Assembly: GCA_963377175.1 (NCBI GenBank)
Contig: CAUJNA010003771.1
Coordinates: forward strand, 2,018,087-2,082,086
Length of the DNA: 64,000 bases
From: Effrenium voratum
Lineage: Eukaryota > Sar > Dinophyceae > Suessiales > Symbiodiniaceae
Direction of reading: 5' to 3'
The position numbers and the translations under genes were made by a program. This document shows positions 10,916 to 48,690 of the stretch, piece by piece. Within the stretch, counting starts at the first letter, position 1; each line of letters starts with the position of its first letter. The notes under the pieces were generated by a model that worked only from the letters and a program-made list of their open reading frames with translations, was not told the origin of the DNA and ran no database searches.

Positions 10916-12044
10916 TAAGCCAATAGTAGAAAGGCACATATGGCTGGCTAAAAAAAACAGTACCACAATGGGTTGCCCTGGTAAGTGGAAACATGGACCA
11001 AAACCTGCGTAGCCCCTCCTGTTTAATTTTGAGCCACACCCATATCTTTGATTAATCCCAAACTTCTTGTTTTGGTAGGATTGACAGCTTTCAAAGAATG
11101 AGGGAATGACCCGCAACCGTGCCTAGACTCCCAAGCGGTTTTTTGCACGCAGCCGGCTGAACATGGAACATGTTTCCTTTTTGGTTTTTAAGGGGACCGC
11201 TTCCCGAACGTAAGATATAACCAGCTTGCCCTGGGCTTAGAGGAGCCTACCATGTATAGAAGCTTTTCTTAATTGAGGCTTCCTTAGTTCAGGTTTGTGA
11301 AGCATAGCAAGTTTGTGTAAAAATTAGGCGCCTTTAAACCACAAACCACACCCCTTAGGGGAAGCCCTTGGAAGAAATATGTTTTTTTTGTTTTTCCCAT
11401 GCATACGGCTTCCTCCGCCAAAATGAGACCCTAATGTTTCACTTGTGAATATGAATTCCCCAGCATGTAGGCTTGAAAGCCCTGCAAGAACCTGCCGCTT
11501 GAATGAGCCAAGTACAGAAGCAAACGAAACGCGGACCCATTGTTGGGAGTATGGCGTTGAACAGCCCGGCCGACCAACCATTCCTGACGAGGATTTGTTG
11601 GGTGAACGTGGATGGCAAAACTCCCCCACTTGAGTTTAGTCATCTCCTTTAGCCACATAAATCAGAATTTATGCCATCTACTTTTACCCTGGTGCATGTA
11701 GATACCTCCAAAGGGTGGCCATCAATTGAGTGGTTTCCCTTTGGTCTCGCTTCAAACCAACTCCAAGTGAGCTGGTGAGTTAGGGTGGTTGACTTAGCTT
11801 CCCCTAAACTGAGCCCTCCATAGGGCTTCCAGCTCCAACGCGATCAACTCCACAGTGAGGCTTGCACCAGCACAGGGGCAAGTAATGATTGCGTACCCTG
11901 GTTTACCCCCCAGTTCACCTTAAGCTTACCGTCCTGGGTTGCTTTCACTTTTCCTTTTTATTAGTTCCCAACAGCGATCAGATGTTGGGTTACAATCTCT
12001 CTTAGCAGGGTCGAGTGGCGGTGCTTTTTTTGATAAATTTTCAA
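10916..12044. other. Non-coding stretch
   Basis: No exon was recognised. A frame at 11450-11630 opens after CCCCAG, but its composition is poor. Confidence 0.35.
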
Positions 12045-12560
12045 AATGCAAGGGGGGGGGGGCGCGATCCGGAACGGGGTACGCAATCCGGAACGCGGGG
12101 AGGGGGTAGGGGGGTGGCGGTGCTTTTTTATGAGAATTTTTGAAAATGTAAGGGTGGGGGGGGAGGGCGCGATCCGGAACGGGGTACGCAATCCGGAACG
12201 GGGAGGGGGTAGGGGGTGGCGGTGCTTTTTCTGAGAACTTTGGAAAATGTAAGGGTGGGGGGGGGGCTCTATCCGGAACGGGGTACGCAATCCGGAACGC
12301 GGGGGGGCACGATCCGGAACGGGGTACGCAATCCGGAACGGGGAGAGGGTAGGGGGGTGGCGGTGCTTTTTGTGAGAACTCTGGAAAATGTAAGGGTGGG
12401 CGGGGGCGCGATCCGGAACGGGGTACATATTCTGGAACAGGTGGGTTCAGGCGGGGGCGTGGCTGCTTTTTAAGATGTTTTTGAGAATTTGAAAAATGTA
12501 AATGGGTTGGAATATGTAAGTGCGGGTGGGGGGGGCAGCAGCTGGGGGGGGGTGGCACTG
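12045..12560. repeat. ~100-bp G-rich satellite, about 4-5 units
   Basis: GATCCGGAACGGGGTAC (or the near-copy ATCCGGAACGG) starts units at 12066, 12171, 12270, 12311 (a partial unit) and 12411. Each unit also holds a second ATCCGGAACG, a GGGTGGCGGTGCTTTT segment and a TTTGAAAATGTAAGGGTGG segment. The right end decays from 12420. The long open frame on the - strand across it is a proline-rich artefact of the G-rich repeat. Confidence 0.85.
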
Positions 12561-12728: not shown

Positions 12729-15700
12729 CCCAGGCCCCCAAATTGCGCTGTCTCGGTTGCTGACATTTCATGAATCATTTCTGGTATTTGCTGCTACTCT
12801 CCGCCTGCTGCAAACTGTGCGAGGCCTGCAACACAAACCTTCAAGCTTCTACCTGTTGCCCGTCAAAATCTTAAGGGTTTTCGTTTGCCCCAACTCTCGC
12901 GCGGAAAACCAACAAGACGCACAACTTGTGGCTGCTTGTAGCGACAACCTGACATGCTCATCAGAAATTAGGGGTCGGAAGGCGACAGCCCAAATCTTGC
13001 TCATAGGCCTTTGTGCTTTTGTGGATATGGGTATGAATCTTAATCTATGGTTGCTCAATTTGTGGAGCATTTCAAGACTCATTGATCCATTGTTCTTCAC
13101 CATTGTGTTGACATGCTGTAGTTTAAAGAATCTTTGGCAAAGGTGTTAACCACCAATGTTGCAACATTTCTTTAACAGGCATGGTTTTCAACAGTTGCGT
13201 CAACGTATCCTGACCCATGGAAATTTGCCACCATTCACGTATGCGTATATGGTCTGACCGGGCCCCGGTCAGGCTTGTCCGGGGCCCGGTCTGTACCTAG
13301 CCCCAGTCAGGCCCGACTGGGGCCCGGTCTAGACCTGCAGCCTTCTGCAAACTGCACGAGGCCTGCAACACGGCACGGCAAAGATAAACCTTTAAGCTTC
13401 TACGTTGGCCGTCAAAATCTTAAGGGTTTTCGTTTGCCCCAACTCTCGTGCGCGTACGCTCACCAGCGATGTCTGGAGCCAGCAAAGCCTTGCAAGCATA
13501 ATAGCTGAGTCTGAGTAATCTTGCTTTCTATGGGAAAACCAACAGGACACACAAACATGTGGGGCTGCTTGTGGCGACAGCCTGACGTGCTCTTAGAAAT
13601 TTGAAATTTAGAGGTCGGAAGGCGACAGGCAAATTCTTGCTCATAGGCCTATGTGCTTTTCTGGACATGGGTATGAATCTTAACCCATGCTTGTCACTTT
13701 GTGGGGCAACTTTTGGCACCACAGCGGTTTCAAGACTCATTGATCCATTGTTCTTCACATGCTGTAGTTTAAAGAATCTTTGGCAAAGGTGTTAACCACC
13801 AATGTTGCAACATTTCTTCAACAGGCATGGTTTTCAACATCGTTGCTTCAACGTATCCTAACCTATGGAAACTTGTCGCCACGCACGTATGGGCCGGGTC
13901 TGACCGGGCCCCAGTCAGGCTTGACCGGCACAAAGCACGCTGTCTCGGTTGCTGACATTTCGTGAATCGTTTCTGATAATCGCTGCTACTCTCCGCCGTT
14001 CAGGGCCTGACTGGGGCCCAGTCAGGCCCGACCGGGGCCCGGTCTAGACCTGCAGGCTTCTGCAAACTGCACGAGGCCTGCAACACGGCACGGCAAACAT
14101 AAACCTTTAAGCTTCTTCGCTGGCCGTCAAAATCTTAAGGGTTTTCGTGTGCCCCAAATCTCGTGCGCGTACGCACACCAGCGATGTCTGGAGCCAATGC
14201 TTTGCTTGCAAGCATAATAGCTGAGTCTTAACATTTTGCTTTCTATGGGAAAATCAACAGGACACACAACACGTGGGGCTGCTTGTGGCGACAACCTGAC
14301 GTGCTCAGAAAAATTTGGGGGTTGGAAGGCGACAGGCAAATTCTTGCTCATAGGCCTTTGTGCTTTTCTGGACATGGGTATGAATCTTAACCTATGGTTG
14401 TTCAATTTGTGGGGCAATTTTTGGCACCACAATGGTTTCAAGACTCATTGATCCATTGTTCTTCACATGCTGTAGTTTAAAGAACCGTTGGCGAAGGTGT
14501 GAACCACCAATGACCCATGGAAACTTGTCACCATTCACGTACGGGTACCGGGCCCCGGTATGGTCTGACCGGGCCCCGGGTCCTGACCGGGCCCGGGTCC
14601 TGACCGGGCCTTGACCGGGGCCCGGTTTGGACTGGGCCTTGGTCGGGCTCTAAGTGTACGGGTTTCTGACATTTCGTGACTCGTTTCTGGTAATCGCTGC
14701 TACTCTCCGCCATTCAGTGCCTGGCAGGACCTGACTGAGGGCCCGGTCTAGACCTGCAGCCTGCAAACTGCACGAGGCCTGCAACACGGCAAACATAAAC
14801 CTTTAAGCTTCCACGTTGGCCGTCAAAATCTTAAGGGTTTTCGTTTGCCCCAACTCTCGTGCGCGTACGCACACCAGCGATGTCTGGAGCCAATGCTTTG
14901 CTTGCAAGCATAATAGCTGAGTCTTAGCATTTTGCTTTCTATGGGAAAATCAACAGGACACAAAACATGTGGGGCTGCTTGTGGCGACAACCTGACGTGC
15001 TCAGAAAAATTTAGGGGTTGGAAGGCGACAGCCCAAACCTTGCTCATAGGCCTTTGTGCTTTTCTGGACACGGGTATGAATCTTAACCTATGGTTGTTCA
15101 ATTTGTGGAGCAACTTTTGGCACCACAATGGTTTCAAGACTCATTGATCCATTGTTCTTCACATGCTGTAGTTTAAAGAACCGTTGGCGAAGGTGTTAAC
15201 CACCCATGACCCATGGAAACTTGTCACCATTCACGTACAAGTACCAGGCCCCGGTATGGTCTGACCGGGCCCCGGGTCCTGACCAGGCCCCGGGTTCTGA
15301 CCGGGCCTTGACCGGGGCCCGGTTTGGACTGGGCCCCGGTCGGGCTCTACCGGTATTCGGTGAGACAGTGTACGGGTTTCTGAAATTTCGTGAATCGTTT
15401 CTGGTAATCGCTGCTACTCTCCGCCATTCAGGGCCTGGCAGGACGACTGGGGCCCAGTCAAGCCCGACCGGGGCCCGGTCTAGACCTGCAGGCTTCTGCA
15501 AACTGCACGAGGCCTGCAACACGGCACGGCACTCATAAACCTTTAAGCTTCTACGCTGGCCGTCAAAATCTCAAGGGTTTTCGTTTGCCCCAACTCTCGC
15601 GCGCGTACGCTCACCAGCGATGTCTGGAGCCATGCAAGCATAATAGCTGACTCTGAGTAATCTTGCTTTCTATGGGAAAACCAACAGGACACACAAACAT

Positions 15701-17087
15701 GTGGGGCTGCTTGTGGCGACAGCCTGACGTGCTCAGAAAAATTTAGAGTTCGGAAGGCGACAGGCAAATTCTTGCTCATAGGCCTATGTGCTTTTCTGGA
15801 CATGGGTATGAATCTTAATCTATGGTTGTTCATTTGTGGGGCAACTTTTGGCACCACAGCGGTTTCAAGACTCTTTGATCCATTGTTCTTCACATGCTGT
15901 AGTTTAAAGAATCTTTGGCAAAGGTGTTAACCACCAATGTTGCAACATTTCTTCACCAGGCATGGTTTTCAACATCGTTGCTTCAACGTATCCTAACCTA
16001 TGGAAACTTGTCGCCACGCACGTATGGGCCGGGTCTGACCGGGCCCCGGTCAGGCTTGACCGGCACAAAGCACGCTGTCTCGGTTGCTGACATTTCGTGA
16101 ATCGTTTCTGATAATCGCTGCTACTCTCCGCCGTTCAGGGCCTGACTGGGGCCCAGTCAGGCCCGACCGGGGCCCGGTCTAGACCTGCAGGCTTCTGCAA
16201 ACTGCACGAGGCCTGCAACACGGCACGGCAAACATAAACCTTTAAGCTTCTACGCTGGCCGTCAAAATCTTAAGGGTTTTCGTGTGCCTCAACTCTCGTG
16301 TGCGTACGCACACCAGCGATGTCTGGAGCCATGCAAGCATAATAGCTGACTCTGAGTAATCTTGCTTTCTATGGGAAAACCAACAGGACACACAAACATG
16401 TGGGGCTGCTTGTGGCGACAGCCTGACGTGCTCTTAAGAATTTAGAGGTCGGAAGGCGACAGGCAAATTCTTGCTCATAGGCCTATGTGCTTTGTGGATA
16501 TGGGTATGAATCTTAATCTATGGTTGTTCAATTTGTGGAGCAACTTTTGGCACCACAACGGTTCAAGACTCATTGATCCATTGTTCTTCACCATTGTGTT
16601 GACATGCTGTAGTATAAAGAATCTTTGGCAAAGGTGTTAACCACCAATGTTGCAACATTTCTTTAACAGGCATGGTTTTCAACATCGTTGCTTCAACGTA
16701 TCCTAACCTATGGAAACTTGTCGCCATGCACGTATGGGTACCGGGCCCCGGTGTGGTCTGACCGGGCCCCGGGTCTGACCGGGCCCCGGTCAGGCTTGAC
16801 CGGCATAAAGCACGCTGTCTCGGTTGCTGACATTTCGTGAATCGTTTCTGATAATCGCTGCTACTCTCCGCCGTTCAGGGCCTGACTGGGGCCCAGTCAG
16901 GCCCGACCGGGGCCCGGTCTAGACCAACCTTTAAGCTTCTACGCTGGCCGTCAAAATCTTAAGGGTTTTCGTGTGCCCCAACTCTCGTGTGCGTACGCAC
17001 ACCAGCGATGTCTGGAGCCAATGCTTTGCTTGCAAGCATAATAGCTGACTCTGAGTATTCTTGCTTTCTATGGGAAAACCAACAGGG
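12729..17087. repeat. ~700-bp satellite, six to seven tandem units
   Basis: The phrase CGTCAAAATCTTAAGGG (one base changed in one copy) occurs at 12861, 13410, 14125, 14821, 15561, 16260 and 16949, giving spacings of about 549, 715, 696, 740, 699 and 689 bp. Each unit carries the same ordered blocks: GTCTGGAGCC, CTTTCTATGGGAAAA, GGAAGGCGACA, GACATGGGTATGAATCTTAA, CATTGATCCATTGTTCTTCA, and a GGGCCC-rich palindromic part (GACCGGGCCCCGGTC and variants). Lengths differ mainly in the palindromic part. Open frames inside repeat in every unit and are interrupted, so no gene is called. It may lie within an intron of the PPR gene. Confidence 0.9.
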
Positions 17088-27105: not shown

Positions 27106-28510
27106 CCTTTTTTTGAGGCAACCCCTACAAAACATGGGTCAAACTGCCTATAGGGATTCCTCCATTTTGTTGCTTTTTTTTAATGGTTTCCCTTCAATCC
27201 CAAGGTGAAATGGAACACGCCTATGTATGGGAATGCTTGATTTGCTTGCAATGTTTGGGGAATCCACCGAATTGCTTTCTTATTTTTCCAATTTTGCTGG
27301 TTGGTAGAGTAGATGGTGAACAAATGTGGTTCACTTTGGCACTCCTGCAAACGTTGTTATATGTCATCACTAGTTTCATGTTACAATTGAACCTGTTGGG
27401 TGCTCATTTGGGGGCCCCCTCGATCTTGGGTGATATCCGACCCATACCTTTTAGGACCCCTCCCAATGGTTGGGGGGCCCTTCCGAAATCCCGTCAAACA
27501 GTTGGGATTGAGTGATTTGGGCGTTTCTTGTCTCAAAATAGGGAAGCCCTATAGGTGATTTCCCTTCGGTATTTGTTTTAGACACAACCCCAAAACAGGG
27601 TTCGCGAAAAACAACCACACACCCATGCGATTCTCACCAGGACACATCGTGCTATCCAGTTTCATGTCAGAGATTCTGAGCCAGCCTTAACACGTTTAAA
27701 TGTGCATGTTAGCAGTTGCGCTCTTTTCGCACTTTCAAAGTGGGAATCCACAGGCGAGGCCAGGGAGGTTGCGCCAGGTAAGAAGGTAGTAACTCCTGTT
27801 CTGCATACCCTAGTGATGCCGAATCTGTGAGGTAAAAACAATGCCAAGCCACAATCCTCGCGGTGCAAGGGGCCTCTTGTTGAAATGCCAAAACCATCCA
27901 GCACCTGGAGTAGCGATGACACAGTCTGCCTTTCGAGGATGGGAGGGTACAGCACACTGCATTCAACACCGTTTGCAGGTATGGGTTTGGGAGGTATGGA
28001 GGCTTACTTATATATAAATATATCACCTGTAAGCCAATATATATATATATATGCCCCTTAAAGTGGTATACAACCTCCACAACTCCAAAAACTGATATAT
28101 CTGGAAATGCCCCTGAAAGGGGCAGGTGACAAACCCCCAAAGTCTATGCGCGAGCGTGTCTCGTTTGGAGTTGGTACCGTTTGTCTGTGAGTTGTGTGGG
28201 GGGACACCAAAATAATGTTCACAATGTTCACAGGTCCGGGTCCCAAGAAATGACACCCCCAAATAGGGGAACCACCCGGATTGTCGATTTTCTTTCAGTT
28301 TCCCCTGTTTGGTCCCACAGTCAAGGTTCCATTTCTGTCTCCGAACCTTGCAAGTGAGATCCCATGGGTTTCCTTTTGTTTCCAACCCAAAAGGGTCCAA
28401 CCCAAAAGCAAAAAGGTCAGACAGACCTTCACACCCACCCCAAAAAGGCGGTCCAACCAGAAAACACCAAGGGCACTCCCAAAGTCTGACAGTTCTGACA
28501 GTTCCCCGCT
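27106..28510. other. Intron DNA with repeats
   Basis: It contains the inverted partner repeat at 28050-28132 and an AT run near 28040. No supported exon. Confidence 0.35.
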
Positions 28511-29859: not shown

Positions 29860-30524
29860 AAACCAAGGACCGGAGTGCTGGATGAAGATGACTGTGCAGA
29901 GCTCATCACTTGCATCAACCAGAAGGGTTTCACCCCAGCCTTGCTGAACATCGGTGGAGGTCGCCAGGTCCTTGATCCCATCGCTCGGGATGGGCACCGC
30001 GCCATTGTGGATAGCCCGGAGCTCAGCGGATGGCTCTTGGAGGTGCTGCTCAGCTGTGTGGCACCAATTATTTTTCCCATGTTTTTGGGTGGCTGCCCCA
30101 CTAAAAATGGTCTTCCCCAAAAAGGGTTCCCTTTTTCCGAGTCACTGAACTGAGGCTGAGGCCCCATCTGCCTCCCAGCTTCCGCCGCGGTCGGCTGGTG
30201 GACCTCAACGAGCGCTGCCGCGTGCTGTGCTACCTGCCGCAGCAGGAGTTCCCCGCCCACTGCGACGGCACCTTCCGGCGCGCCAAGCCGGATAAGCGCG
30301 CGGGGGATCGGTCCATGATCACGGTGCAGCTGTACCTCCATGATGTGGCAGAGGAGAGTGGAGGAGGTACCGCCTTCTTCAAGGACTCCGGAGAGCTGGT
30401 GTGCAGTTATCAGCCAAAGGCGGGCAGCGTATTGATCTTTTCTCAAAATCTGCTTCATGAAGGTTCACTGCTGAAACAGGGCTTGAAATACACCCTGCGC
30501 ACCGAAGCAATGTACAGAATGTAG
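29860..30524 (+). CDS. Prolyl-4-hydroxylase-like 2OG-Fe(II) oxygenase, C-terminal part
   Basis: Two exons are visible: 29860-30044 (acceptor TTTGCGTCAG) and 30155-30524, ending in TAG. Joined, they encode about 184 residues. The first part (L-D-E-D-D-C-A-E-L-I, then N-I-G-G-G-R-Q-V-L) is the usual N-terminal half of the oxygenase fold. The iron ligands are the His and Asp of FPAHCDGTF and the His of NLLHEGS. The Lys of GLKYTLRTE fits the 2-oxoglutarate contact, and LYLHDV and GGGTAFF are core strands. The family hydroxylates proline or related residues using O2 and 2-oxoglutarate; the substrate here is unknown. A start exon was not found. The intron 30045-30154 is GC-AG and is itself a TIR element. 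Removing it gives EVLRPHLPPSFRRGRLVDLN. Confidence 0.9.
30049..30154. mobile_element. TIR element forming the oxygenase intron, target duplication GCTG
   Basis: The left end CTCAGCTGTGTGGCACC and right end TCACTGAACTGAG are partly inverted repeats. GCTG lies on both sides (30045-30048 and 30155-30158). The element's own terminal AG is the splice acceptor, and the left duplication supplies the GC donor. Interior similarity to 35749-35862 (GCACCAATTATTT, GGTCTTCCCC, AAAAAGGGTTCCC) shows it is one of a family. Confidence 0.88.
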
Positions 30525-39775: not shown

Positions 39776-39999
39776 GTAAGCTGGCTGGGTGTCACGCCAA
39801 AAATACCAACATTGGAACCCTTGATTGATCTCACTATCCAAAGTACACATCCGACAAACATTTCTTGTCCCTTTTAGGCGGGAACGCGATTGCCTGTTTT
39901 TGCTTGCGCATGCTGACCACATGCTCCTGCCAAATAGATTTAATTCATGCCTAGTCCTCCCCCTTAGTGGGACGGCCTGATTTTTGGCTTTGGCCAGGA

Positions 40000-40832: not shown

Positions 40833-40969
40833 ATTACTACTACTACTACTACTACTCCTCCTACTACTACTACTACTGCTACCACTGTAGCAGTAGTAGT
40901 AGTACTAGTAGTGGTAGTAGTAGTAGTAGTAGTAGCAGTGGTGTAGTAGTAGTGGTAGGGGTAGTAGCC

Positions 40970-41012
<43 letters not shown>

Positions 41013-41123
41013 CTCAGTTGTTCAAAGCCGACCTTTTGACCTTTTGGTTTCCAATTTTGGTCCATATTGAGTCATGGCCCCAAAAGGTTAACCTTTTAGT
41101 TCCAGGTCCTTTGGGCAAGTGAG

Positions 41124-41180
<57 letters not shown>

Positions 41181-41330
41181 ATAGTACTACTACTACTACT
41201 ACTGCTACGACTGGTACTACTAGTACTACTACTACTACTAGTACTACTACTAGTAGTACTACAATTTTCCTTTGGTACTACGACCACTACTACTTCTACT
41301 TCCACTACTACTAAACTACTACTAGTATTA
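40833..41330. repeat. TAC/GTA trinucleotide array, split by an element
   Basis: It starts as (ACT)n, switches to (GTA)n near 40890, is interrupted at 41013-41123 by a TIR element, continues as (GTA)n to about 41178, then switches back to (TAC)n with impurities. Confidence 0.95.
41013..41123. mobile_element. TIR element inserted inside the GTA array, target duplication GTAG
   Basis: The left end CTCAGTTGTTCAAAG mirrors the right end CTTTGGGCAAGTGAG. GTAG flanks each side (41009-41012 and 41124-41127), though duplication length cannot be proved inside a GTA repeat. The interior is nearly the same as 23149-23260. Confidence 0.85.
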
Positions 41331-42846
41331 CTTCTACCAGCGTGACCCCTGTTACTTCTAGATGAAACTATTTGAAACTATTATTTGAAACTAATTGAAA
41401 CAAATTGAAACTATAGAGCAAGTTAATCATAATATCATCATAATGGGGTTCCACCTGCCTATTTCACGGTGGAGGCTGCTTGACTTCACTGAGGAGGAGG
41501 CTACAGGGCGTCCCGGACCAGGTTTTTTCAGGCTGACTGACTTGCCCGCGTGTCATTGTGTGTCCATGGACGCCAAATGACACAGCGTGATCCAGCGTGG
41601 ATCAATGCGGATTGGCAGCCTGGTGATATCTGGTGATGTCCCACCTGGGTTCCGTGTTTTCAGTTTGGAGCGTCTTCTTTGCTCAGATTGGTAAATGGTT
41701 TCGGTTGTTTTGGTTCCAGGAAAAACCGCAAGCTTCAACTTGGACCTTTAGAATTACAAGCCGGGCATGTATGGATGGGTAATTACGTGTAATTACCTGT
41801 GTGACATCCAGCATCTTCCAGCCGTTCTTAGGGATCCTTCTGTCGAGATACCCGCTATGAGCCGCCCGAAGCCGGGGGAAAGGCCGCTGATGGCCGCTGT
41901 TGGTTTGACTGGAATTGTATATGGAATTGTGGTTGCAAAAAGTGTTCATGTTCGAGTTTGTTGCGAGGGTTCTCTTTTTAAGTTGGTCAAGACAAACGCC
42001 AATTTTGAATCTGCGGGGATCTGCAGGGCCCACATCCCAGGTTGAAACCAACCAAACCCCCTAGCGGGGCACATCGGGGCACACAATAATGAATTATATG
42101 AAATTGAATCAATTGCGCAAGGGAAAGCCGCAATCTGGCAACGGCTCTCGCGCCAAGGCGCCCTTTTTTTCGGATCCGGGTTCCCCCATCTCTTGTTCTG
42201 AACCTCCAAAAGTGGCAGTTTCAGGGGAAACCGCCATAAACCACCAGTCAATGGCAATTACTGGCAACTTTTCAAGGGTAAATCATGGGAAATCCATGGA
42301 AATCCAGTGACCCCTGTTACTTCAGGTTTCTAAATAATTGAAACTTTATGTTCTATATGGAACAATCAAAGCAAGTTAATATAAGTTAATCATAAAATAA
42401 CATAATATCAGGAAGTTTGTGGCATCAGCAGAATGACTTCTTTGGGGATAGCTGATGAGGGGAAGCTGGTGGAAGCTGATAAGGGGAAGCTGGTTTTCTT
42501 CAGCACAGGCCTGCCAGGACTGGGTGTGTGCTTCACTTGAATTCACTTGAGCTTCAGTTGAGCATTTTTGGGGATTGAGATGGTGTGAGGGTAAGTGCGT
42601 GCGCACTCAGCTTTTTATGTGGCGAGATGTGGCAAGGGTCAGATTGGCATATCTGGTGAGGGGTCCTTGGGACGGATACTGGGTATCGTTATGTATCATT
42701 GGGCTTTCTGAGTGGGATACCCACGAACTGGGTGTGGGTGAAAGTTGAGGCTTAGGACATCTTAGAGAATTCAGGGAATCTCCATGAATCACAAAGAAAT
42801 TCAGATATTCTCAGGGTATATCTCAGGGATTTTCAGGGATTCTCAG

Positions 42847-43099
42847 GGCGGGCAGAAGAGCATCCAGTGGAATGAGAAGCTTGGAAGCGGGAGGGCTGCG
42901 CGGCCCCGTGGACGTTGCTGATGCACCCGAGCTCACCCTGCAAGGGCGCCTGGCAGACGTGAATACTGGCGCATACTGGCGCGCCAGCTCGACGCTTCGT
43001 GCGGACCGGATCATGGATTACGAGTACGTCGAACCACGGGCTCAAGTGGCCACGTTCCCCAACAAGGGCCCGTCGAACAATTTCTATGATGAAAAATGA
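42847..43099 (+). CDS. Possible exon carrying one 8-bp echo
   Basis: After GGATTCTCAG the frame runs to a stop at 43099. It reads MRSLEAGGLRGPVDVADAPE and LTLQGRLADVNTGAYWRASS, then DRIMDYEYVEPRAQVATFPN. GC-rich at third positions. The echo ACTGGCGC-AT-ACTGGCGC at 42965-42982 lies inside it. A 10-base insertion there shifts frame, so either the frame adapted, the exon is a decayed copy, or the true exon ends before it. No family is recognised. Confidence 0.4.
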
Positions 43100-45594
43100 T
43101 GAGCTGACCTGGGCTACTGCTTACCCCAACCAAAATTATGCTCTGATTCGGGCCCCATGCTATCCCAAGCTTCGTGATCTGGGCCATTCTGGGCCACTCG
43201 CAGTTCAGAAGTATTCAGAATGAGCTCCCAGGAATTCCCAGGAGTTTCACGCGTTCTCCCAAACTCAGGCAACTTGATTTCGGTGCGGCTGAGTTTCGGC
43301 ACCAGGTTCGATTATGACATATTATGAATTCTTGTGACTCTTGGCTGGGGGATACTGGGGGCTTACTTCGTGGCGGGTAAACGTGGAACTAAAATCTGTT
43401 AAATCTCCTCTTGTGCAAATCTATGGAAATCTCCGCCTTGAGCATCATTTTAAGTTGTGGGGGGCTACGGCGTTTCTTTGGCGAGCAGCGAACCGGTATT
43501 CACCAGTAGCCCCAAATCAATCCCACAAAGTGGATCAAAGTGGGGGGGGGGTATGGGGGGGTGCTTGCAGGCTCCCAAAATTGTTGTTTTGGCAGCCCCC
43601 AGAGACGTTCAGATACGTCAACACGAAACCAATTTAACCCAACACAGCTCTCAAAACAAAAACCTGCAATTCAAAATTGTCCCCAGCAATACTGCCCCAT
43701 GATATCCAATCAAATCCAATCAATATCAATCAATCATCACTGAGGGATATTGAATGATGTTGAGGGACCTATGAGGATCTGATTGTTTCGGGGGGGTCCA
43801 ATGCAGTCCAGTTTTTCAGAGGTCACATGAGTTTCACCACATTTCACCACAACATACCACAACCCAATTATACCCAATTCCTAAACACATCTAAATACAT
43901 CCTCAAAACTACGTAGACCGTCGGAGAAATTTGGAGACATGCGACGGAGAGGAGCCAGGCGCAGGGCCACGCAGGGCCTTAAGACATCTTAAGACGCCAA
44001 CTGAAATGAATTGAAATACTTTCGGGCGTTCGCAAAATTGCTGTTGTGGATTTTTGAGGAAAATTGGGAGGGTGTGAAATGTGAGATATTGTGAGGGTGT
44101 GAATATGTGTGAAATTGTGTGAATATCGGGCTCTTTGTTTTCAAATGGGCCTTGCCACAGATTTCAAAATGCATCCGATTGCATCCGATTCACATAATAT
44201 ATTTCTAGCCTTCCATGGGCACGTATGGCAAGGGCTGGGGGGCGTGAAGAGATGTCAACAGGGCATAACAGGGTCCTAGCTTGCCGGCTTCCTTTTAACC
44301 CAAAACAACGGGGCCTCTTCACCAAACCAAAGTCTAAACCCAGCAGACAGGTTCTCCATGAGGTCTTTGGCTAGCAGGGGAGCATAGGGAGCATTCCATC
44401 AGGGAAATATAGGGAAATATTTGTTCACCACAGTTGTCAAAGCAGGGGCTATTTTGGAGGAGCCCCCCCCCCGTTGGACCATACTAATTATAGAGGAAAT
44501 AGAGGAACCCGTACTATAAACATTTCCGTATTAAAAAGGGGGCCACCCTGATTAGCACGGTCCTCCGAAAAAATGTTTTTCCCACGCTTTCGTGGCGCGA
44601 GAGCATTCTGTAACGTTATGTAACGTTGCTCAGCTTCCTTTGATCAGGGAATACCAGGGATTTCTCGATTCGGTACATAGCCGCCCGGCACTCGTTGATC
44701 TTGTGGGTATTCCATCCTTTTAGTATCTTTTGGTCACCACATGTGGCCACTTTTAGTCAGGGTTCCAAACGGCTATTAGCGTCACTTTGAGCTGGCAAGC
44801 AGAGTTCATCAGAGTTCCCGCCCTTTGGGGCAGTTTCAGCATGTTTTAATAGGTTTGAGCTGTCAACGTGAGGGCGTGTGAGGAGTTGTGAGGACGCCCA
44901 ATGCATCCCAATGCTCCCGGCCGCAGTTGACGATTCTGCGCCACATCATCGAGCTATATCGAGCTCATTTTCAGTGAGCCTGCCACTATTTGCCGGCGTG
45001 AAACTTGCCCCTGGCACTGGAACCGGGCATGTTATGAGTTGGAAATAGTTAGAACCAGGCCGGAGGAATCCGGAATGATCCGGAGGATGTCTTGATGAAA
45101 TCTTAATGTCTTGAGGCTGTTTTCATGTGTTTTCAACTGGCATGGGACGTTTTGAGCTGGTTTGATTAAGTTACCGTCGATCTCGCGTTGATTGATCGGT
45201 TCGTGTACTAAGTCGAGCTTGTGGGGGCCGGGGATGGCCGGGGCATATCGGGGCATCCGCGGTGCGAAACAAGTCATCGCTTCAGACGTGGTCCCACTAT
45301 CCAGATCTACCCAGCCTAATTTGGTTCTCCCAAAGCGCATCAATATATAGCAATATATCGAATTCGATCAAATATCTTTATGGCCGCCCTGTGCCTGTTG
45401 ACCTCGTGGATCCCTGCAATATCTTTGGGCACCACATGTCCACGCGGTGATTCCAAGGCTGTGCGGAACACAGTTGCGCAAAAACATGGGGTGTTCGATT
45501 CCCCCCTTTTGCATCCTTAGCACCTCCTGGGCAACATCGCCAGCATCACCTGCATCATCCGCATCAGCGCCTGCCAAGGATGCGGATGATGCAC

Positions 45595-45710
45595 ACACAC
45601 ACACACATGCGTGCCTACATATACACACATCCATACACGCATATATCTATATATATATATATACACAGACACGCGTACATACATACATTCATACATACAT
45701 AGAGTGGGTC
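45595..45710. repeat. AC/CATA microsatellite
   Basis: An (AC)n run is followed by CATACA and ATAT units. Confidence 0.9.
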
Positions 45711-45777
45711 TCTTTGATTTTTAGGCCGCATCAGTGGGGCAGTTGATCCACACGCGCCCGCCGATCTTGCTTGGCAG

Positions 45778-46066
45778 GACCAGTCCAAAATGGGAGGCAG
45801 CTTCCTGGCTCATAGCCGCTGGAAAGAAGCATTGGCTGATGCTGGTGGAAAAGCTTGGCCCATTGCTCTCCGCGGCAAGCCAGGCAGGCAGAAGAAATCA
45901 CGCAGGCGTATCCAGGCGAAATCTGGCAGATTACGGATTTTAGCTAGTACGGATGGCATGCCATGCCAGGTGCTCGACGATGGCAAGTCCAAGCTGGGTA
46001 GCAGCTCAGCCAGGCAGGCCTTTGATGTGAGGGCGGCAGCAGCTTCCCGTTCAAGGAGACTTTGAA
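45778..46066 (+). CDS. Possible exon, frame ambiguous
   Basis: A TTGCTTGGCAG acceptor leads into GC-rich DNA. One frame reads MGGSFLAHSRWKEALADAGG and a basic tail; another reads SWLIAAGKKHWLMLVEKLGP. Both are protein-like, and I cannot choose. It lies inside the echo field. Confidence 0.35.
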
Positions 46067-46412
46067 GGGCGGAGATTCCAACCTCGCTTGCCGCACCTGC
46101 GCTTCAGCTCCTGGACGCCGTCCGAGATGGCTTTGACACTTGTGGCCTTCCGACTCAGATCAACTCTTGGAGTTAACATCGAGTGGTGGAGTTATAACGA
46201 AGTCCCAGCTGGTTTGGTGAATGTTATGCAATCTGATGCAGGCGATGCATGAACTATCATGAACTCACATGGAATGGCCATGAATCCATGTTTGAACCAT
46301 TTTGAAGCAGAGGTGTCGATAGGTGTCGCGAAGATTCCAACGTATACCAACTCCCCAGTGCACGTGCGCACGATCGCAGTTGCGCACGGTGGCTCAGCAT
46401 GATTCAGCTTAG

Positions 46413-46650
46413 GTGCTGCCACCAGAGCCAGAGGAGAGCAGCGTGCTGCAGATCCTGATCGGTCGGCAGGTGATGGACTTGCGTCAGACCTTGAAGTTCC
46501 GGGTGTGCCGGTATTTGATGGTGCCGCGCGTGCTGCTGGCGAAGAACGCCGGGATGGATCCGGGCGAGGGGGTGACCGTGACGGCGCGCATGGTGCAGTC
46601 TGAACTTTGGCGGCATGGCGCTGCGGGAATTGGTCGCCCCACCTTGCGGG
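46413..46650 (+). CDS. Exon of unrecognised protein
   Basis: After GATTCAGCTTAG the frame reads VLPPEPEESSVLQILIGRQV, then MDLRQTLKFRVCRYLMVPRV, LLAKNAGMDPGEGVTVTARM and VQSELWRHGAAG. Codon third positions are strongly G/C and the order of hydrophobic and charged residues is that of a folded domain. It is the best exon in the echo field and contains no echo itself. The donor is not certain (about 46640-46670). Confidence 0.5.
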
Positions 46651-46977
46651 CGAGTTCTCTGGGAGTCAGCCAGGAATGCCGCCTTTTGGGTGCCTGCTCT
46701 TTTCGGTCTCCTTGAGAAAAACATGTTTTTTGTTGAAACTATGTGAAACGGATTGAAACGGCTTTTCATGGCTTTTCTCCAGGTGTCAACAGTCAACATG
46801 TTTTAGACTTACGGGGGGAAAGTGCGTCTTGGACGGCCAAGCTAGGGCGGAACTGCTAAATGTCCGGAAATTAGATGGGCACCTTTCCAAACACGACCTT
46901 TGACGAAACAACGACCATCAACGACCACATTTCGGTGCTTTTTGCTCAGAGGGTCTCAGAGTCATTTTTTCGGGGCT

Positions 46978-47780
46978 CATGGCAAGCTGTGGCGCCACAC
47001 CCGTGAGAAAGGGAGATGCCATTATCGAGCTGCAGTTTGGCGTCACCCTGGTGGAGGCTCAAGCTGGGCTCGCAGACGGCTGAGAGGTATTGATCGTCCA
47101 ACGTTGTCATTTGTCCTCCCGGAGGAAGGCTCAAGACTTCACGGTGGCAGCGCGGCAGAGCGGCCAGAGGTCATTGACAGCTCGAACGAGCGACACGGAT
47201 GACAGGCTGGCAGAGCTGGTGGCGAGCAGCACGGCGGAGTACCTGCCCATCGGCCAGGGTGCACCACTGCAAATTTGTTCTGACGCGCACTCGCACCTCG
47301 GCTGAGGTCATGTCAATTCATGTCACTTCTTAGCCCGGAAGCTGGTGCCTGTGGGTGTTTGTTGGCTCCTTGGTTTGGGGTTCACACTACGCGGAGACGG
47401 AAAAGATGGCAGATGGCACATGCCTGCAAATTGGCAAGGTGTGTGGAAAGACGCAGATTACCGCAGATTCATCCAGATTCGCAAAGTTGTTGCACAACGT
47501 GACGCCGATTCGCACTCGGACCAGGAGCCTCCGGAAGCCCGCGGCAGCACTGGACATCACCGGCACGGTCCACCGACTTCCGGTGCGCACGGCCCCATGC
47601 CTGGGCTTGGCAGAGCCGGAAGCTGCCCCGACGCTTGCCATATGCCCTCAAATTGGCGAAGTCCTGCGTGGACCGCAGGGCTGCCTCAGACTGGCCCCGT
47701 GGGTGGTGATGAAAACTGCTAGAATCTGCAAGAAATTTCTTGCAGATTCTTGGATAGGCTTGGTGAAGACCCCAGCTTGA
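46978..47780 (+). CDS. Coding-like islands, exon structure unresolved
   Basis: 46978-47080 reads VRKGDAIIELQFGVTLVEAQ; 47120-47260 holds SLTARTSDTDDRLAELVASS; and 47500-47640 holds PIRTRTRSLRKPAAALDITG. All three are G/C-rich at third positions and separated by non-coding words and echoes. They probably belong to the same gene as 46413-46650. Borders are not set. Confidence 0.3.
47721..47750. repeat. Perfect 30-bp palindrome
   Basis: The left arm AGAATCTGCAAGAAA is followed directly by its exact reverse complement, with no loop. It may be a tail-to-tail duplication or a cruciform-forming site. Confidence 0.85.
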
Positions 47781-47950
47781 GCTTGCGTAAACGTGGCGTA
47801 CCGGCTCAACGTGGCTTGACCAAGGTTGTGCCGCTGCAGTCCGTGGTGGCCAAAAATTCTTGGGGCCTGTTCCCCGCTCGCCACATGCGGAAGGGAGCGC
47901 CTCGGCCCATGAGGAGGTAGCCATAGGTAGGCAGATGATGTCAGATGCTT

Positions 47951-48284
47951 TGGCATCAGATCATCGCTAAAAGTCAGCGGGGGGGGGGGGTCGATTGCCT
48001 GACGAGGTCCAATTAGTCTTGAGACTGCTTCGTTTCATGTGCTCGCCCTGTGCCGCGTCCAGAAAACGACAAAGTGTGTGGGTCCCTGGCCACCCAGATG
48101 GGAAGCAAATGGGAAGCAGAAAGAAATGAACCCTGGGACATTCTAGGACTTTGGGCTGTGCGACAGGTATCCTGAATATTCATGAATATGTTCCCTGCGC
48201 GGAAGCAACCTACTCATAGGCGTGGGGATACTAGAGTCCTCTACCACATTATTGCGAGTAGTGTTGCTAGTAGCATTATTACGA
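47951..48284. other. Non-coding stretch
   Basis: It contains a G-run near 47981 and an 11-base echo of TGGGAAGC near 48100. No exon. Confidence 0.4.
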
Positions 48285-48434
48285 CTAGTCTAGCACTAGT
48301 ACTACTACTACTACTCCTGCTACTACTCCTACTAGTACCACTGTTACAAATGCTACTACCACTACTATTCCTGCTACTGCTGCTGCTGCTACTAATACTA
48401 CTACTTAATACTACTACTTAATACTACTACTTAA

Positions 48435-48503
<69 letters not shown>

Positions 48504-48599
48504 AACTACAACTACAACTACAACTACAACTACCTACTACTACTACAACAACAACAACTACTACTACTACTACTAGTATTACTGCTACTGCATTTACTG

Positions 48600-48631
<32 letters not shown>

Positions 48632-48632
48632 G

Positions 48633-48667
<35 letters not shown>

Positions 48668-48690
48668 GCTACGACTACTAGTTCTTAGTT
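48285..48690. repeat. CTA/TAC trinucleotide array
   Basis: A long (CTA)n run with CTG, CAA and TTA interruptions. Together with 40833-41330 it brackets the echo field. Confidence 0.95.

Follow-up and report, generated by a model that had tools for sequence, protein, structure and literature searches.

The dinoflagellate Effrenium voratum carries, on contig C3589 of an assembly of 1.156 Gb in 3,699 contigs, a field in which 8-bp words are duplicated on either side of the dinucleotide AT. These events are written here as W8-AT-W8, W8 being the duplicated word. The field lies in a stretch of 64 kb (C3589:2018087-2082086, GC content approximately 50%), which is referred to as the window. We lean towards the explanation that it is a dense trail of excision scars from an element of the cut-and-paste type that duplicated 8 bp of its target and whose ends left a cohesive AT. 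The coordinates of individual features are collected in Table 1.

Exact runs of at least 8 bp repeated at a distance of 10 bp (lag-10 runs) were found 53 times in the window, and 42 of them start within positions 41363-47932. Runs of exactly 8 bp number 35, of which 27 are in the field, and each other lag from 1 to 40 gave at most 5 runs of at least 8 bp there. Over 300 dinucleotide-preserving shuffles, the mean was 0.06 lag-10 runs (42 observed) and 0.007 W8-AT-W8 events (32 observed), with a largest shuffle value of 1 in both cases. A W8-AT-W8 reading is possible for 32 of the 42 runs in the field versus 3 of the 11 outside it, and the remainder of the window holds 8 events with at most one mismatch. 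An earlier inspection of the letters of this DNA alone (the sequence-only reading) had reported more than 25 exact duplications, far above chance, and these counts bear it out. It had also put AT in the spacer in nine of ten cases, which was too high; the proportion is about three quarters (21 of the 27 runs of exactly 8 bp). The other spacers are GT (3), TG (1), AG (1), and AC (1), and five of these six (GT three times, AG, and AC) are one substitution away from AT.

Similar fields exist elsewhere in the genome. A genome DNA search with the field, in which 40 of 1,518 candidates were scored, followed by a rerun without a dispersed repeat (4 of 4 scored), revealed that the right part of the field has paralogs on contigs C735 (80% identity), C1879, and C1702. 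On C735, 8 exact events all fall within the homologous 1.8 kb, with none in 1.5 kb on either side. Positions 25,261-42,577 of C1879 contain 106 events with at most one mismatch, 71 of them exact. The first event is at 27,576 and the last exact one at 39,893, beyond which only three one-mismatch events follow (39,904, 40,047, and 41,926). This field therefore covers approximately 12.3 kb (about 27.6-39.9 kb) and has two sharp edges, with 2.3 kb free of events on the left. A search for repeats shared between its edges gave only matches of 8-12 bp. The C1879 and C1702 copies (L024/L032 and L025/L033) differ by one base in 4,817 bp, and may be a recent duplication or two haplotypes.

Outside such domains the events are rare. 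Nine non-simple exact W8-AT-W8 were counted in approximately 250 kb around the window field and none in 10 other loci of about 3.1 kb, so that this local survey did not reveal the equal frequency elsewhere that the sequence-only reading had named as evidence to the contrary. C280 carries a partial homolog of the field's left part, but with 2 exact and 3 one-mismatch events in 7 kb it does not form a field; 3 kb of C2667 held no AT event. The trinucleotide arrays previously seen as the boundaries do bracket the field in the window, but this is not general, as the edges of the C1879 field are sharp and tandem-repeat searches of its left (L049) and right (L045) flanking pieces found no TAC/GTA array.

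The sharp edges could also be explained if the excision model were true but the fields were foreign DNA whose genome of origin has such scars throughout. The protein relatives (P0001, P0002, and P0003) are all on ENA contigs and a third piece is without a relative, which would suit such an origin. A search of IMG/VR gave no relative. Dinucleotide signatures did not support it: compared to windows nearby, the field pieces have deltas at the 73rd-93rd percentile, with AT deviating most, and a piece next to the C735 copy that contains no scars likewise reaches the 93rd percentile. As the C280 homolog is also not a field, we consider foreign origin improbable.

Word length and spacer were determined over three fields, namely the window field, the C1879 field, and the short C735 paralog (18.6 kb), and later over 21.1 kb with the piece L046 added and low-complexity words dropped. 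The longest word repeated around each AT was exactly 8 bp in 90 cases, 5-7 bp in 4, and longer in 1 in the 18.6 kb; the corresponding numbers in the 21.1 kb were 106, 5, and 1. Among 128 lag-10 runs in the larger set, AT is possible as the spacer in 103, a dinucleotide one substitution away in 18, and neither in 7. In the 18.6 kb, other lags were low, apart from lag 20, which reflects stacked events, and slight rises at lags 11 and 12; lag 9 was near background. Because 76 of the 128 runs are exactly 8 bp long, the AT was mostly not copied from the flank. This speaks against tandem duplication, which would copy the spacer as well, and refutes it for most events. A lag close to one helical turn might suggest 10-bp duplication or slippage, and slippage could have extended the two W8-AT-W8-AT-W8 triples in the 21.1 kb. 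An assembly artefact does not fit the target preference, the mismatch classes, or the sharing of events among paralogs described below. We give hardly any credence to slippage or artefact as the source of the fields.

The events occur at a recognizable target. Outside the word, A is preferred at position -3 and T at +3, with a weaker preference for G at -2 and C at +2, so that the motif is palindromic. In the window field, A-3 is present in 20 of 32 events and T+3 in 17 of 32; in the C1879 field, the values are 29 of 50 and 32 of 50. Both anchors accompany 35 of 90 events, compared to 5.5% of random positions. The piece L046, obtained after the motif had been recognized, shows A-3 in 11, T+3 in 10, and both in 6 of 23 events (p 0.0016). 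Part of this signal comes from stacking, because the A and T of a spacer can themselves anchor neighbouring events nested 11 bp apart; in the nested pair at 43706..43734, for example, the A of the first spacer occupies -3 of the second event. Inside the word, no clear preference was found (information of at most 0.016 bit per position). Isolated events have T at word position 2 in 20 of 56 (p 0.023 before correction) and A at position 7 in 14 of 56, and these bases are near base level in all events (39 of 149 and 40 of 149, respectively). A symmetric target combined with an 8-bp duplication is characteristic of integrase- or transposase-type strand transfer. Passages of a study of Drosophila elements with terminal inverted repeats or long terminal repeats describe palindromic motifs that extend at most 3 bp past the duplication; those of hobo and the P element are 14 bp long (PMC3276498).

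The scars are of graded age. In the fields, 85 non-overlapping events are exact, and 64, 52, and 47 have one, two, and three mismatches, compared to 1.9, 8.0, and 21.1 scaled from background. These AT mismatch counts are upper bounds, because one event read in a shifted register yields other spacers too, and other spacers are also raised in the fields (one-mismatch TG 48 and CA 34, for example). Nevertheless, one- and two-mismatch AT events are real older scars, as the target preference is kept in both classes (A-3 in 31 of 64 and 24 of 51, T+3 in 29 of 64 and 22 of 51, respectively). AT is also the outstanding dinucleotide of the fields, with a rho of 1.02-1.22 versus 0.82 in 70 windows and an excess of 397 in 21.1 kb. 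If each excess AT brought a copied 8-mer, the scar-derived share of the field sequence might be up to about a fifth, as an upper guess.

Comparison of homologs gave 28 alignable rows, with events viewed from the window, C1879, or C735, so that one event may be present in two or three rows. The homolog is single-copy in at least one other locus in 5 of the 28, with score differences of 3.5 to 6.5 and one case inside a stacked event. A further 21 rows are shared and 2 are unclear in one locus; many of the shared rows compare the window with C735, which diverged by 5% in aligned columns. Shared and private events together indicate a long-running process that continued after the copies parted. These homologs also bear on programmed excision, in which elements flanked by W8 would be removed every generation in the sequenced cells. 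Such a system would suit the uniform product and the lack of a filled site in the sequence screened. However, no second, unprocessed version of the sites was seen, and where a homolog lacks the duplication, it contains the word once without an insert. Nothing observed supports this suggestion of the sequence-only reading, and we regard it as very improbable.

In the explanation that we favour, a cut-and-paste (DDE-type) DNA transposon, or short non-autonomous derivatives of it, would insert at a 14-bp target of weakly palindromic sequence, A(G)N-NNNNNNNN-N(C)T, and duplicate its central 8 bp. The element would then depart efficiently. Its ends would begin with 5'-AT, and a cut of the non-transferred strand two bases inside the element would leave a 3' AT overhang on each flank. 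As these overhangs are complementary, they could anneal and be ligated to W8-AT-W8 almost every time, which would account for the uniform product. The same small domains would be targeted over a long time, and each scar would provide A and T anchors for further events. The sequence-only reading had suggested such a graveyard of departed elements. This is the best-supported reading, in which the element itself is still a postulate, and it is strengthened by the motif at +/-3, the single-copy homologs in 5 of the 28 rows, and scars of graded age. The accompanying idea that one base remained from each end may hold, but a 2-nt self-complementary AT overhang would fit the uniform product better, because ends of one base should frequently yield spacers of a single base, and lag 9 lies near background.

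Several observations weigh against this explanation. More than 100 exact scars were found in 21 kb, but no filled site or convincing element with terminal inverted repeats was found in approximately 337 kb (310 kb, of which 6.5 kb were masked, plus later loci, with 10-kb overlap); the sequence-only reading had likewise seen no intact element. Interiors of the form A...T are no commoner in both-anchor pairs (37 of 564) than in no-anchor pairs (339 of 5649). The motif is weaker in the 56 isolated events (A-3 in 26, T+3 in 29, both in 14) than in all events, and only 1 of 9 background events around the field has both anchors. Target sequence does not account for the sharp edges of the domains, for which a cause such as chromatin state or a transcription unit may be needed. 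Finally, no known element with an AT footprint like this was found in the parts of the literature searched. The element might depart rapidly, it might now reside elsewhere, or there might never have been one.

Three screens were used to look for filled sites. Screen A looked for pairs of the same 8-mer that are separated by 30-8000 bp and enclose terminal inverted repeats of 14 bp. Among its best 120 of 567 rows, TAC/GTA arrays, GGGCCC-type palindromic repeats, a 13-bp tandem repeat, a 22-bp tandem repeat in L037, and AT repeats were rejected, and two further pairs are 95 bp and 935 bp long. Screen B (8-mers 12-3000 bp apart with anchors) gave 9,884 pairs with none convincing among the best listed, and screen C (later loci, 8-mers 20-8000 bp apart) had none convincing in the best eight of 5,001 pairs. 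The dispersed repeat at 45457-45593 was considered as the missing element and rejected, as it belongs to a longer repeat, for which an alignment of 11 copies showed no clear AT ends. A separate pair, GGTGCACC, in the right flank at C3589 ~2141659 (L017/L018 border, concatenated 59573), encloses 776 bp with an 11-bp inverted repeat and has neither anchor. It is possibly a small element without the anchors of the field.

The missing filled site can also be accommodated without any element. An integrase- or nuclease-like enzyme could break A(G)N-N8-N(C)T with 8-nt 5' overhangs; fill-in, addition of one untemplated A per end, and joining would give W8-AT-W8. This would be a domain-restricted break-and-fill mutator that adds 10 bp per event. 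The prevalence of AT among lag-10 runs (103 of 128), the sharp domains, and the symmetric target without preference inside the word are all consistent with it. On the other hand, joining two ends with a 3' A should often leave a one-base spacer, whereas lag 9 is near background, and insertion by a transposase or integrase is what a symmetric target flanking an 8-bp duplication usually indicates. We know of no enzyme that performs such a break-fill-join reaction, and we judge this route unlikely, though to be taken seriously. A rather bolder and less probable form is DNA-writing, in which an integrase-like enzyme would repeatedly add 10 bp, consisting of the local 8-mer once more and AT, in sharp domains of approximately 2-12 kb, with no element carried or left. 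If true, each scar would give anchors for the next, and up to about a fifth of a domain would have been written (an upper guess from the 397 excess AT).

Among known systems, the P superfamily is similar in that the Drosophila P element combines an 8-bp duplication with a 14-bp palindromic motif reaching 3 bp past it, according to passages of the study cited above (PMC3276498), comparable to A(G)N-8-N(C)T here. P differs in preferring GTCCGGAC within the duplication, whereas the words of the fields have no clear preference. The excision product of P elements is also longer and variable, and is not AT. The hAT elements (hobo, Hermes, Ac/Ds, and Tol2) share the 8-bp duplication (106 words of exactly 8 bp here), the cut-and-paste mode, and, in the same passages, the 14-bp motif of hobo (PMC3276498). 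Their target nTnnnnAn is not clearly seen in the field words, so that neither family named by the sequence-only reading was confirmed. Footprints of Ac/Ds vary, with 28 kinds among 128 Ds revertants in the portion of the report consulted (PMC5873905), and contain P-nucleotides, in contrast to the AT in 103 of 128 runs here.

Other transposons resemble individual steps of the proposed excision. For Sleeping Beauty, of the Tc1/mariner group, passages of one paper describe 3' overhangs of 2-3 nt from the element ends that remain as a characteristic footprint (PMC3878927). This parallels the proposed step, but Tc1/mariner elements duplicate the 2-bp TA and not 8 bp of any sequence. In piggyBac, the TTAA overhangs of the flanks anneal together without synthesis, according to the same passages (PMC3878927). 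Annealing flanks are also proposed here, but piggyBac is restricted to TTAA and leaves no footprint, whereas the 8-bp duplication and AT are kept in the fields.

The region common to C1879 and C735 consists of exon-like conserved blocks that alternate with variable stretches. Only 1 of 11 events in C1879 (blocks 1,146 of 1,817 bp) and 2 of 9 in the window (blocks 1,000 of 1,622 bp) fall inside blocks, and two of these three sit on the stop codon of the last block. Selection on coding sequence would explain this sparing. The window copy has many deletions compared to C735 and is probably broken. Pfam searches with 10 translations from C1879 and C735 gave no match that reached the cut-off.

The location of events mostly between exon-like blocks could point to introners. 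In dinoflagellates and other algae, these short DNA elements have inserted into genes in large numbers and, like the proposed element, have target duplications. If introners with 8-bp duplications were removed from RNA by splicing so that A and T remained, and a complementary DNA (cDNA) copy then replaced the gene, splicing would yield a uniform product. Both introners and gene retroposition are reported from dinoflagellates in the passages seen of one paper (PMC11453091), and an introner of Aureococcus lengthens the transcript by 12 bp, of which 8 are from the duplication and 4 from the introner itself, in passages of another (PMC9860276). Those passages give Symbiodinium introners 4-bp duplications (PMC9860276), and introners are present as introns, whereas only scars were found here. 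The variable stretches between blocks are still there, which makes a cDNA copy unlikely, and graded ages and paralog-private events would require many rounds of conversion. We regard this route as improbable, if not quite the least plausible.

Transposon footprints are usually met singly, whereas more than 100 exact scars, and more with mismatches, are present here in small sharp domains. Judged by titles, abstract starts, and passages, PMC searches on dinoflagellate footprints, 8-bp duplications, and introners listed no description of such fields. As the target motif is readable, the scars alone allow the stagger, target, and repair product of an enzyme not itself seen to be deduced, and they can be dated against each other. 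Sharp domains make it testable what guides an enzyme of this kind to a few kilobases. Should there be no element, the fields would represent a new kind of local, self-reinforcing duplication mutator.

Table 1. Features of the field and its surroundings (positions in the window)
Feature	Position	Strand	Remarks
TAC/GTA arrays, left field edge	40835..41337	.	
Field of W8-AT-W8 events	41362..48187	.	63 events with at most one mismatch, 32 exact; first start 41362, last start 48170
Event ACTGGCGC-AT-ACTGGCGC	42965..42982	.	C280 (L043) homolog single-copy; single-copy form scores 27.0, two-copy form 23.0
Nested pair CCAATCAA-AT-CCAATCAA, then CAATCAAT-AT-CAATCAAT	43706..43734	.	second event 11 bp on
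Dispersed repeat, portion of a longer one	45457..45593	+	at least 40 other genome copies; inner hairpin; cut off here by CA/TA microsatellite
Exon-like conserved block	46312..46695	+	84% to C1879; one event at left end
Overlapping pair TGAAACGG-AT-TGAAACGG and GGCTTTTC-AT-GGCTTTTC	46744..46777	.	both common to C735 and C1879
Exon-like conserved block	46971..47058	+	95% to C1879; no event
Exon-like conserved block	47092..47305	+	94% to C1879; no event
Exon-like conserved block	47499..47686	+	84% to C1879; no event
Conserved block	47808..47933	+	96% to C1879; reading frame common to three copies, terminal stop; one-mismatch event on stop
ACT (TAC) array, right field edge	48295..48680	.	similar array after C735 copy (L023)

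Beside the C735 copy, an open frame on the minus strand (L023 3954-4343) has rve_3 (an integrase core, weakly similar at E 0.16) and thioredoxin (E 0.011) as best matches, both below the cut-off. A search for RNA families gave 22 weak matches under gathering scores, nearly all on simple repeats, and another gave none at gathering in the window and three loci; a spliced-leader motif was not found in the window. A perfect 30-bp self-complementary stretch is located at 47721-47750, and 9 bp of it are gone from the C735 copy. Elsewhere in the window, tandem units of approximately 99 and 140 bp containing G runs occupy 12015-12426, palindromic repeats similar to GGTCTGACCGGGCCCCGGTCAGACC are clustered at 13251-16919, and an open frame at 30105-30521 encodes a 2OG-Fe(II) oxygenase domain (PF13640, E 1.2e-9).

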